The notes beneath the pieces were generated by a model, which worked only from the letters and a program-made list of their open reading frames with translations, was not told the origin of the DNA and made no database searches. A stretch of 64,000 nucleotides of DNA, from assembly GCF_029023865.1 (NCBI RefSeq), contig NZ_CP118969.1, forward strand, positions 2,356,001 to 2,420,000. Direction: 5' to 3'. The position numbers and the translations under genes are program-made. Below are positions 26,855-32,340 of this stretch, one piece after another (the stretch's first letter is position 1; every line of letters starts with the position of its first letter). Origin of the DNA: Lactococcus lactis (lineage in GTDB: Bacteria > Bacillota > Bacilli > Lactobacillales > Streptococcaceae).

Positions 26855-27712
26855 TTATAATTTTTCAATTTCTTCAAAAAGAGCTTTTGCTTCTACTGAG
26901 TAACCGTAATCTCCCAAGGTTTGCGCGTGTTCTTTCATTTCTTCAATCGCTCCGTTTTGTTTTTGCAATACTTTATAATGAGCTTCATGATATTTTAAAA
27001 TAATTTTTTCATAGAAAAAATTGATACTTATTCCTATTTCATTTAAGTGATTGATATATTTAAAAGCTTGCATCAAATTTTCTCGACGTAACCAAGTATC
27101 AATAAGATTTAAAAATGTTCTTATTACGATCTGCTGATTGAGATGAATTGAGTGATAATAATTTGCTTTTCCTAAAATTTGCATTCCATAATACTCTAAA
27201 GCATTATCATCAAAATGTCGAAGACAATTCCCAAAAATCCATAGTTCATAGCGTCCCCATTCGCTGATAGATTCAAGGTAGTTCATCAAAAAGTCAGTAT
27301 CTTCCTTAAAAACAGTAGAACCTTTTGCCATTGCTAAGTTGATTTTAACCACTATTTTATTAATCTGATAAAATTTATTATCAGGTTTCTGTTGGCATTT
27401 TTCTTCCCAAAAATTTTGAATTTCCTTTATTACTTTGATATTTTTTTGCGCATAAGCCACAGCCAACTCGTGACGGTAGTTGTATTCATCTGATTGTTCA
27501 TATTCGTTATAAAGGTTTTGAAATTCATCTAAATAGACATTTGAGTTTTCTAAAACGGTAAATAGTTTACCCACCGTAATCTCTGTTTCTCCTTTTTCAA
27601 ATTTTGCGAGCTGAGATTCTGAAAAATCGCCACCAGTCATTTCTTTTAATTTCAGATGCTTCGTTTCTCTGATAAAAGCAATTATTATTCCGGTTTTTAA
27701 ATTTTTTTCCAT
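26855..27712 (-). CDS. Rgg/GadR/MutR-family regulator of the str island
   Basis: The 285-residue protein has an N-terminal XRE-type helix-turn-helix (IRETKHLKLKEMTGGDFSESQLAKFEKGE), then a helical-repeat peptide-binding domain with the Rgg pattern (EYEQSDEYNYRHELAVAYA, WGRYELWIFGN). Rgg proteins bind short exported peptides that are taken back into the cell and then switch target promoters. The promoter is TTTACA, 17 bases, TATAAT (27763-27768). An 18-base inverted repeat almost identical to one at the strA promoter lies in its leader (27724-27741). It sits downstream of the biosynthetic genes on the same strand, behind a terminator. Its signalling peptide was not found with confidence. Confidence 0.88.
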   Translation of the reverse strand: MEKNLKTGIIIAFIRETKHLKLKEMTGGDFSESQLAKFEKGETEITVGKLFTVLENSNVYLDEFQNLYNEYEQSDEYNYRHELAVAYAQKNIKVIKEIQNFWEEKCQQKPDNKFYQINKIVVKINLAMAKGSTVFKEDTDFLMNYLESISEWGRYELWIFGNCLRHFDDNALEYYGMQILGKANYYHSIHLNQQIVIRTFLNLIDTWLRRENLMQAFKYINHLNEIGISINFFYEKIILKYHEAHYKVLQKQNGAIEEMKEHAQTLGDYGYSVEAKALFEEIEKL

Positions 27713-27723
27713 TTCATTTTCCC

Positions 27724-27741
27724 TTTGTCATATATTCCAAA
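27724..27741 (-). promoter_or_regulatory. Candidate Rgg box at rgg
   Basis: The minus strand reads TTTGGAATATATGACAAA, one base different from the palindrome at strA. It lies between the rgg -10 box and its start codon, so autoregulation is likely. Confidence 0.55.
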
Positions 27742-27797
27742 TTTATTAAATTATTTGAAATTATTATACAACTTTGCTTTTAGCTTGTAAACTAGAT

Positions 27798-27833
27798 AAA
27801 AAAACTACTGACAGCTTTTCTGTCAGTAGTTTT
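27798..27833. terminator. Terminator at the strC end (ACTGACAG type)
   Basis: AAACTACTGACAG pairs with CTGTCAGTAGTTT. The strC stop codon TGA is inside the motif. Nearly the same element ends sepM at 30746-30785. Confidence 0.85.
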
Positions 27834-28962
27834 TTATTTTTCTAAAATAAATATTTTTTCTAGCTAAAAGATAAATTAGGAGAATAAGTAAGGAAATCAG
27901 ACCAAATATTAAATAAATAAATTCTACAGTTAAATTTTGGGCAATTAGACCGCTTGATAAATCAGCAAAAATATAAAACAGAGATAAAAATGTATCATAT
28001 ATTGACCAGAAAACTACTCGATTATTTTTTATTAGTTTATTAAATTCCCCAATGAAAAAGTTATTATAGCCACCATTTATTAATCTAAAAATAGAAAATA
28101 AAACAATAGTAGTAAATACCGATTTTGTAAAAAATAAAAGAATTGATATTAATGGTAATAGCATAACTATCGATAATTTTTTCCACTTTATTCGACTCCC
28201 AATTGCCATACATACATTAAAAGTAAACAAAACAAGCCCTAAATACTTAAGTAGAAAATAATGATATTTCAATAAAATACTACTCCAACTATTGACAGAC
28301 ATGATGAGTGTTGTGACAGTTATTCCTAATAAAATGAATAAGTTTAGCTTAGACGATACTTTTAATCCCTTTCGTAATGTCCTTATATTAATAGTTATTT
28401 TTTCTTCTTGTTTTTCTTCTCTTTTTTCTAATTTTATAAAACATAAAAAAATGGTTGAAAAAACAATAAATGCTACTGATATTATGATTGGTAAAAAACG
28501 ATTGAAATGTAGTATGGCTGGTGTGATAATTGTCATCACTGATATTGCAAGATATTGTATTGAACTGCTGCCTTCAAGATATTTGCGATATGTAACATCA
28601 TCTGGAAGTTGTTCATAAGAAAAAGTTTGCATTACTCCAGAAGATAGAGCTTCTGATATCCCAAGTATGACCGCTGCTAAGATTGCTAAATAAAATTTTT
28701 CAAATAAAAATAGGGTAAAAGCAATAATTGACAAAATATTATTAAGTAATAATACTTTTTTTCTATTTTTTTGTTCAGCATAAATACCTAGCGGTAGATT
28801 TAAAATCACTCCTATTATTTGCGTCATTGCACTAATAATCATAATCTCAGAATATCTATAACCCAAAGCATTCATAATTAATATGCTAATAAAAAAATAG
28901 GGAAGGAGGGACAAAAAGAGTTTAAATAGAAAAAGTTGTTTATATTTGATTATGATTTTCAT
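27823..28962 (-). CDS. MFS-type transporter of the streptide-like cluster (StrC position)
   Basis: The start at 28962 is an ATG overlapping the strB stop (ATGA), which gives 379 residues; a TTG three codons upstream is less likely. There are about ten to twelve strongly hydrophobic segments, with an MFS-type loop between segments 2 and 3 (GIYAEQKNRKKVLLLNN). It probably exports the modified peptide or its leader-cleaved form. The sequence is very AT-rich like strB and unlike the flanking housekeeping genes. Function is inferred from position; MFS proteins of this size have many substrates. Confidence 0.75.
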   Translation of the reverse strand: MKIIIKYKQLFLFKLFLSLLPYFFISILIMNALGYRYSEIMIISAMTQIIGVILNLPLGIYAEQKNRKKVLLLNNILSIIAFTLFLFEKFYLAILAAVILGISEALSSGVMQTFSYEQLPDDVTYRKYLEGSSSIQYLAISVMTIITPAILHFNRFLPIIISVAFIVFSTIFLCFIKLEKREEKQEEKITINIRTLRKGLKVSSKLNLFILLGITVTTLIMSVNSWSSILLKYHYFLLKYLGLVLFTFNVCMAIGSRIKWKKLSIVMLLPLISILLFFTKSVFTTIVLFSIFRLINGGYNNFFIGEFNKLIKNNRVVFWSIYDTFLSLFYIFADLSSGLIAQNLTVEFIYLIFGLISLLILLIYLLARKNIYFRKIKNY

Positions 28963-30302: not shown

Positions 30303-30331
30303 TCAAAAAAAGGCGACTAAACGTCGCCAAT
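30303..30331 (-). terminator. Attenuator between strA and strB
   Basis: On the minus strand GGCGAC pairs with GTCGCC and is followed by seven T. Partial termination would make the precursor in excess over the maturase, as is common in RiPP operons. Confidence 0.85.
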
Positions 30332-30345
30332 TCTGCTATCAAATT

Positions 30346-30459
30346 TTATTTGCTAGCAGCCCATCCATCTCCCTTAGCCATTGAACTATTTTCCAATACA
30401 TTTTTAAGCATTGCCAAAAGCTCTGGTTTGGTTGATTGTTCTTTAAGTTCTTTTTGCAT
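30346..30459 (-). CDS. strA: Streptide-type precursor peptide (StrA)
   Basis: This 37-residue frame starts at an ATG with AAAAGGAG spaced six bases upstream. It begins MQKELKEQ and ends SSMAKGDGWAASK. Residues 28-33 read AKGDGW, identical to the first six residues of streptide from S. thermophilus (AKGDGWKVM). The leader also resembles the known one near VLE-SSM. The Lys29-Trp33 pair has the i to i+4 spacing that StrB cross-links. The four residues after Trp (AASK) differ from streptide, so the product would be a new analogue. It is directly upstream of strB with an attenuator between. The cleavage sites are not known. Confidence 0.92.
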   Translation of the reverse strand: MQKELKEQSTKPELLAMLKNVLENSSMAKGDGWAASK

Positions 30460-30482
30460 AATAAATCTCCTTTTAATATAGA

Positions 30483-30513
30483 CAGATACCAATTTTGATT
30501 CAATTGGTATCTG
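30483..30513 (-). promoter_or_regulatory. Hairpin in the strA leader
   Basis: A perfect 12-base inverted repeat, CAGATACCAATT with AATTGGTATCTG and a seven-base loop, lies between the predicted start of transcription and the strA ribosome binding site. No T run follows. It may stabilise the mRNA or be an operator. Confidence 0.7.
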
Positions 30514-30535
30514 TTATTTTATCAAAATTATTGAT

Positions 30536-30566
30536 AGTATAAATTTTATTTGGAATATATGCCAAA
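30536..30566 (-). promoter_or_regulatory. strA promoter overlapping a candidate Rgg box
   Basis: On the minus strand TTGGCA (30560-30565), 18 bases, TATACT (30536-30541). The palindrome TTTGGAATATATGCCAAA (30549-30566) covers the -35. The near-identical copy at rgg points to Rgg as its ligand. Confidence 0.65.
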
Positions 30567-30587: not shown

Positions 30588-30815
30588 ATGAGAAAACCCA
30601 CGTTGTTACTATATTGGCTCTCTTTTTTTCTTCTTTATTTTTATTACTCTATCTCCAGTTTTTACTTTCAAAACCCCAATTCTAAACTTTTTATAAAAAA
30701 ATTTATTTTATTTATCTTTTGTCATATATTCCAAAAATATCCGATGAAAAAACTACTGACAGAAAAGCTGTCAGTAGTTTTTATTTTTCTAAATAATCTA
30801 AAGCGTCCTGAATAG
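30588..30815 (+). CDS. Doubtful hydrophobic small ORF divergent from strA
   Basis: The frame begins MRKPTLLLYWLSFFLLYFYY and is strongly hydrophobic at first, like a short hydrophobic signalling peptide, but runs on for 75 residues through the sepM terminator into sepM antisense. There is no clear ribosome binding site. Position (divergent from an Rgg-type promoter) makes a peptide gene conceivable, but the length is wrong for a known SHP and low-complexity AT-rich DNA often gives such frames. Confidence 0.15.
   Translation: MRKPTLLLYWLSFFLLYFYYSISSFYFQNPNSKLFIKKFILFIFCHIFQKYPMKKLLTEKLSVVFIFLNNLKRPE
30718..30735 (-). repeat. Third copy of the 18-base Rgg-box-like element
   Basis: The minus strand reads TTTGGAATATATGACAAA, identical to the rgg copy at 27724-27741. 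It lies just outside the str genes next to the sepM terminator, where it controls no visible promoter. Confidence 0.6.
30746..30785. terminator. sepM terminator (ACTGACAG type)
   Basis: AAACTACTGACAG pairs with CTGTCAGTAGTTT, with T runs on both sides. Confidence 0.85.
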
Positions 30816-32293: not shown

Positions 32294-32340
32294 TACTTTT
32301 TTCTTTCTTAATTTACTGACAGAATTTCTGTCAGTAAAAG

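Follow-up and report, generated by a model that had tools for sequence, protein, structure and literature searches.

The window, that is, the whole 64-kb stretch of Lactococcus lactis DNA that was analysed, carries four uninterrupted open reading frames on its minus strand, in the order precursor peptide, radical SAM/SPASM cyclase, MFS protein and then rgg (Table 1). The initial annotation, which named neither a strand nor the regulator and its surroundings, had claimed a 37-residue gene with an AKGDGW core and an AASK tail, placed before a radical SAM/SPASM enzyme and an exporter, and had suggested a comparison of the peptide with RaS-RiPP precursors. The minus-strand translation from 30459 to 30346, MQKELKEQSTKPELLAMLKNVLENSSMAKGDGWAASK (37 aa and a stop), bears out the peptide; the cyclase starts 67 nt downstream, with the MFS gene next, and the precursor passes the NCBI model TIGR04079 (KxxxW-cyclized peptide pheromone) with 52.8 bits for a cut-off of 35. 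The plus strand across the gene is interrupted by stops, a ribosome-site-like AAGGAG is found a short way 5' of the ATG, and a degenerate pattern for KGDGW at the DNA level has a single match in the 64 kb and none in 100 shuffles. The reading of the 37 codons as a chance ORF was rejected, the family model, the ribosome site and the operon setting speaking against it. No second precursor copy was detected in the source genome at E <= 10. Streptide is printed as AKGDGWKVM in the accessible text of PMC12445099 and PMC7564271; its first six residues are identical to those of the core, and the AASK tail differs. The leader motif VLENSS is the counterpart of VLESSS, and 27 residues precede the core, 13 more than the 14 of the streptococcal precursors.

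Table 1. Features of the locus and of the two distant peptide genes
Feature	Position	Strand	Basis or remarks
Rgg regulator, 285 aa	26855..27712	minus	TIGR01716 101.7 bits (cut-off 36.9), Rgg_C 96 bits
Left direct-repeat copy flanking the cassette (dyad region and terminator)	27711..27840		D1 and D3
Dyad copy 11 nt before the rgg start codon	27724..27741		
MFS protein, probable exporter	27823..28962	minus	MFS_1 57.9 bits; homologues at streptococcal loci
Radical SAM/SPASM KxxxW cyclase, 439 aa	28959..30278	minus	TIGR04080, solved homologue 5v1q, conserved Cys
Terminator-like hairpin between precursor and cyclase	30312..30328	minus	fold
KxxxW precursor gene	30346..30459	minus	TIGR04079 match; leader 1-27, core AKGDGWAASK 28-37
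Hairpin in the precursor's leader, 13-bp stem	30481..30515	minus	fold of 30460-30530: -20 kcal/mol, z -5.28
Sigma-70-like promoter TTGGCA-18-TATACT	30536..30565	minus	consensus match only
18-bp dyad over the -35-like hexamer of the precursor promoter-like site	30549..30566		
Right direct-repeat copy flanking the cassette	30705..30788		D1 and D3
Second upstream dyad copy	30718..30735		
G457 peptide MFKNNKKIVKSEINNISENQASKEKNGVFDRAVFSKGDGWKIKS	L089 7382-7516		44 aa, end SKGDGWKIKS; ribosome site; TIGR04079 19.2 bits
pB8 peptide MSIKLSIKKVDLGMVMCCNAFAKGDGWSDSL	L088 1425-1520		31 codons, core AKGDGWSDSL; ribosome site; TIGR04079 18.7 bits

The cyclase scored 878.2 bits against TIGR04080 (KxxxW cyclic peptide radical SAM maturase, an equivalog model with a cut-off of 500). 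Over residues 2-439 it was aligned with the solved homologue 5v1q/5v1s/5v1t (E 9.7e-152), which has the same cysteine motifs and which we take to be SuiB of S. suis. All ten intact cyclases compared share ten invariant cysteines, namely C117, C121 and C124 of the radical SAM CxxxCxxC motif and seven further ones, and the same ten are also invariant in a diverse set of six cyclases including both distant ones described below. The start codon of the MFS gene was picked by its overlap with the cyclase stop, the ATG (28962) overlapping it by 4 nt. MFS homologues are present at all 12 streptococcal loci fetched, and the order precursor-cyclase-MFS is the same at the intact streptococcal loci and in the distant relative G457, where the MFS gene was judged by eye. 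Judged from its sequence, the locus is a streptide-type (KxxxW) RaS-RiPP cluster of Lactococcus, and a Lys-Trp ring in its product is strongly expected.

We looked at the distribution of the family among 335 Streptococcaceae species genomes. A cyclase match at E <= 1e-40 was found in 13 of them, 11 being over the cut-off, and a precursor in 12, all over the cut-off, these belonging to 2 of the 10 genera. In G158 and G231 the precursor is still present next to a broken cyclase; G299 lacks a precursor match, and its cyclase is cut and contains one stop. When these three were left out, the remaining 10 of the 13 genomes gave an identity matrix in which the window cyclase was 53.2-54.6% identical to the nine intact streptococcal cyclases. 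A recent transfer of the cassette from Streptococcus was considered and rejected, an old divergence fitting as well, since the cyclase values compare with 47-52% for coaD and 79-81% for pgi in four of the genomes carrying intact streptococcal cyclases. Among 14 named control genomes, only L. lactis passes either family cut-off. The rarity outside streptococci claimed in the initial annotation stands insofar as 1 of 18 Lactococcus species genomes passes the cyclase cut-off and has the precursor, but its novelty there is weakened, because the accessible text of PMC5491770 (Benjdia 2017) already reports a cyclase and KGDGW peptides in L. lactis and the NCBI models catch both genes. The cluster is new neither in kind nor for L. 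lactis.

AKGDGW is invariant in the 12 Streptococcaceae precursors and is followed by KVMAKGDGWK (one), K (five), HV (three), R (one), KL (one) and, in the L. lactis window, AASK. Directly after Trp, all 11 streptococcal precursors have a basic residue and the L. lactis one has Ala, the only non-basic residue of the 12. KGDGW was found in all 14 precursor rows compared (these 12 and two distant ones), and the leader motif reads VLENSS in L. lactis and VLESS or ILESS in the 11 streptococcal rows and is absent from the two distant rows. These two rows come from distant KGDGW clusters that our comparison adds, both below the family cut-offs. The first, G457, is the one further relative in a sample of 395 Lactobacillales genomes, and its distant KxxxW-type cluster (L089:7382-10080) holds genes for the peptide, a cyclase and an MFS-like protein, arranged as at the streptide loci. 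The second lies on plasmid pB8 of Macrococcoides canis, the best of 85 matching plasmid records among 72,556 (32.2% identity over 77% of the query, E 1e-44), while the other 14 of the best 15 of these 85 reached 23-27% identity. The pB8 peptide gene, which precedes the MFS gene and the cyclase, is missing from the PLSDB gene table, this table being incomplete. Against TIGR04080, the pB8 cyclase scored 218.6 bits and that of G457 282.7 bits (about 283), both under the cut-off of 500, and the residue after Trp is K in G457 and S in pB8. A search of viral contigs gave no match, and a profile of six cyclases run over 398 class-level and 398 phylum-level sampled genomes found only the own cyclase at E <= 1e-45. 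A tblastn search of the plasmids with the 37-mer gave no match though pB8 carries a relative, this search being blind to such short diverged peptides, and a genome-contig scan gave one 22% match and missed the streptococcal relatives, so that its silence is uninformative.

Over the -35 of the precursor's promoter-like site and at two further places, the DNA carries the 18-bp near-palindrome TTTGG(A/C)ATATAT(G/T)(A/C)CAAA. With up to two mismatches, this dyad was matched six times strand-wise, corresponding to three places in the window, for a mean of 0.10 and a maximum of 2 in shuffled sequences. The direct repeats on either side of the cassette are 83% identical. Near-identical intergenic hairpins, ACTGACAG...CTGTCAGT, recur at 27799-27835, 30747-30782 and 32314-32336, and two of them are perfectly complementary 36-mers flanking the cassette. 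There is also a hint, by eye, of a dyad-like string broken by a few bases directly after the stop of the window rgg. A search for an rgg remnant within the 151 bp that separate the two upstream dyads gave at best short matches with E 0.025 or worse, and the idea was discarded.

The window rgg is placed downstream of the cassette; at the streptococcal loci, it lies upstream in 11 of the 12, those where an rgg was found. In a tree of Rgg proteins, the nine streptococcal streptide-locus Rggs fell on one side of a branch with a support of 100/100, and the window Rgg fell outside and grouped with the Rgg of another Lactococcus species, G006 (100/99). These nine were drawn from the 11 streptococcal loci with an rgg match, leaving out G158 (rgg in two pieces) and G313 (taken as a near-copy of G307); G299, with no rgg match, is absent. 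The lactococcal resident Rggs did not form one clade (3 changes for 8 rows), 4 of the 18 inner branches were open, and of the tandem pair in G003, the first copy grouped with paralogues. In S. thermophilus, Rgg is driven by an SHP. No SHP-like gene passed our filter between 26500 and 31000, though the filter may miss atypical SHPs. A hydrophobic plus-strand ORF at 30588-30815 was rejected as an SHP, having 75 codons and, by eye, no ribosome site. Elsewhere in the source genome, a relative of the SHP-like peptide of G013 was not detected at E <= 10 in a search run without positive control. The same genome carries two other rgg loci of note. At L083:7332-12033, a paralogous rgg precedes three genes, one for a 752-aa radical SAM protein that weakly resembles RiPP C-methyltransferases, one for a peptide (34 codons) and one that is MFS-like, and this locus is possibly a second RiPP system. 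At L090:2921-8757, another rgg is accompanied by a divergent 25-codon hydrophobic peptide gene, MKKYKFIYFLTVITVAILSYPIIIW, adjoining a radical SAM gene and biosynthetic-looking genes.

We then compared the chromosomal site with that of other Lactococcus species. Relatives of rgg adjoin sepM in six of them, with identities of 86% in G006, 63% in G009, 61% in G011 and G001 and 56% in G013, while G003 has two rgg in tandem, a 41% identical copy next to sepM and then a 51% identical one. The interval between rgg and adhE carries differing cargo across the six species (ABC and MFS genes judged by eye). In G009 (L078), it consists of an SSH-type RaS-RiPP peptide (NF050043, 49.9 bits, cut-off 45), two radical SAM enzymes and an ABC and an MFS gene; in G006, of another radical SAM/SPASM protein with ABC transporter genes; and in G011, G001, G013 and G003, of peptides of 91-106 residues that look secreted, accompanied by hydrophobic proteins, three of these cargo proteins having no Pfam or NCBIfam family match when tested. 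Secreted-looking peptides of 91-100 residues at the rgg site (L079:8082-8360, L081:5398-5700 and L082:10623-10898) have ASA(D/A)T and TP(V/M)..PL.QVM-like stretches, and the two of them that were tested had no Pfam or NCBIfam match. The window cassette sits between sepM and rgg, on the opposite side from the cargo of the other species. A divergent 30-31-codon gene with an SHP-like acidic-hydrophobic motif is present at four of the six loci (G009, G011, G001 and G013; e.g. MKKSKLKWIIFLAFDIIIISKFAAILPTLLK), and none passed the filter beside rgg in G006 or G003; four further ORFs that the filter let through resemble chance.

Each of the six species has dyad-like sites at two places, one 3-4 nt past the stop codon of the last rgg and the other 8-12 nt ahead of the rgg start codons. 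Both stretches of G006 had 0 of 500 shuffles as good, and so strong a signal or nearly so (at most 1 of 500) was seen for 7 of the 11 stretches outside G006, which come from five species. The weak ones, namely both of G009, the upstream one of G011 and the downstream one of G003 (7, 3, 12 and 17 of 500 shuffles, respectively), are identified mainly by their position. G011 and G001 are near-copies, and therefore their dyad stretches are not independent. The window sepM and pgi are closer to those of G011 and G001 (83-84% and 97%) than to those of G006 (72% and 84%); since the window Rgg nevertheless groups with that of G006, these sequences suggest recombination at the sepM-rgg site.

Altogether, we consider it highly probable that the locus is a streptide-type cluster working through a Lys29-Trp33 ring, leader cleavage, MFS export, a leaky terminator and Rgg control. 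The genes, their order, their family membership, the conserved cysteines and the dyads are seen directly in the sequence; the ring, cleavage sites, export, regulation and peptide function are what we infer, along the following lines. The precursor would be bound via its leader motif VLENSS, and the radical SAM/SPASM enzyme would link Lys29 to Trp33, the expected bond joining Lys C-beta to Trp C7 with loss of 2 H. According to the accessible text of PMC5491770, the S. thermophilus enzyme joins these two atoms and works well on a 21-residue peptide. Next, a protease, for which no gene is seen in the cluster, would remove the leader by cutting before Ala28, after which export of AKGDGWAASK or a trimmed form of it would fall to the MFS protein. 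The terminator after the precursor is presumably leaky and would keep the precursor above the enzyme, and the adjacent Rgg, of lactococcal lineage, would control the cluster through the dyad over the precursor -35. Provided that cleavage takes place before Ala, as it does for streptide, the computed m/z of cyclic AKGDGWAASK is 494.746 for [M+2H]2+, or 430.699 without the last Lys, and the linear peptide is calculated to be 2.016 Da heavier than the cyclic form. The same arithmetic applied to streptide gives 495.247, in agreement with the value printed in the accessible text of PMC7564271.

Against this model count the Ala after Trp, which the cyclase may not accept, the leader longer by 13 residues, the lack of an SHP-like gene passing the filter, the position of rgg downstream of the cassette, and the dyads of G009 and one each of G011 and G003, which are weak by themselves. 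One might suppose that, owing to the changed tail and the longer leader, both unlike those of the 11 streptococcal precursors, the enzyme makes another cross-link or none on this peptide. We find this very improbable, since the cyclase is an over-cut-off equivalog that keeps all ten shared cysteines, the Lys-Gly-Asp-Gly-Trp core is the same, and enzyme and precursor have diverged side by side. As for regulation, control of the cluster by the local Rgg through the -35 dyad is likely from the arrangement of the sites. The streptococcal streptide clusters use an Rgg of a different clade, in keeping with the idea that the dyads belong to another regulator and that the cassette is controlled independently of rgg; this is nonetheless quite unlikely, as in six other species the dyad keeps fixed distances to the rgg orthologue regardless of the cargo, and a paralogous rgg of the source genome is flanked by weaker dyads (matched by 5 and 21 of 500 shuffles).

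The cluster could also be intact but silent or decaying, with an Rgg that has lost its SHP and a cassette rarely or never induced. This would agree with the lack of an SHP-like gene passing the filter at the L. lactis locus, against its presence at four of six loci of other species, and with the broken cyclases of G158 and G231, where the precursor persists. We regard it as unlikely, given that all four genes are uninterrupted, that the dyads and the promoter-like site are well preserved, and that an SHP may act in trans. Beyond the preferred reading of an Rgg-controlled streptide-type cluster, we propose, as a speculative and rather doubtful extension, that the sepM-rgg-adhE site of Lactococcus serves as a dock for interchangeable peptide cassettes, all driven by a single Rgg lineage together with its operator dyad. 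The streptide cassette would have been captured on the sepM side and rewired to an Rgg without an SHP of its own, the inducer being perhaps a foreign SHP or the cyclic peptide itself. The cassettes in question are KxxxW in the window, SSH-type and another radical SAM system in two species, and the secreted-looking peptides of 91-106 residues in four, a pattern that covers seven genomes, one per species. Against such a docking place speak the window locus, where no SHP was found, the weak dyads of G009 and parts of G011 and G003, the position of the cargo on opposite sides of rgg, and the resident Rggs, which are not a single clade. The comparison points to a chromosomal site at which a single regulator lineage is paired with varying peptide cargoes.

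In open-access text, as far as it was accessible and with figures and most subscription papers outside this scope, AKGDGW was found only in S. thermophilus papers (PMC12445099, PMC7564271) and the AASK tail was not found; literature titles combining streptide, KxxxW, RaS-RiPP or Rgg with Lactococcus included none on this regulator or site. In the accessible text of PMC10889254, BAGEL4 lists streptide for four S. thermophilus strains and not for four L. lactis strains, which may mean that only some L. lactis strains carry the cluster or that it was overlooked. Where we could consult them, reports mention antiSMASH RaS-RiPP regions for L. lactis UTNCys6-1 (streptide being named) and D1_2, not tied to this locus. 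The role of streptide is still given as 'Function not characterized' in the accessible part of a 2026 review (PMC13361665).

Like the window cluster, the L. lactis KW cyclase of PMC5491770 has an upstream KGDGW peptide, and it is plausibly this very cluster as far as the accessible text tells; that text mentions a downstream protease and ABC transporter, in contrast to the single MFS gene of the window locus, and contains no mention of Rgg or of the dyads. The SSH-motif locus of G009 resembles the window in its coaD, sepM, rgg and adhE neighbourhood, with an rgg 63% identical, dyad-like sites and radical SAM RiPP cargo, but differs in having another precursor, two other radical SAM enzymes, cargo on the adhE side of rgg and an SHP-like gene. 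The cyclase of structures 5v1q/5v1s/5v1t has the same cysteine motifs as the window enzyme. With the streptide (str) cluster of S. thermophilus, the window cluster shares the AKGDGW core, the VLE-SS leader motif, a KxxxW cyclase, a transporter gene and an Rgg nearby. It differs in that streptide has KVM and a second KGDGW in place of AASK, that the window leader is longer, and that the window Rgg, for which no SHP was found, is of another clade and on the other side of the cassette. The interest lies in the tail variant and the regulatory site, the peptide tail and the apparent switch both differing from the streptococcal ones. A natural variant in what is probably a tractable food bacterium, with what should be the same ring and another tail, would help tell whether the ring or the tail of these peptides carries activity.
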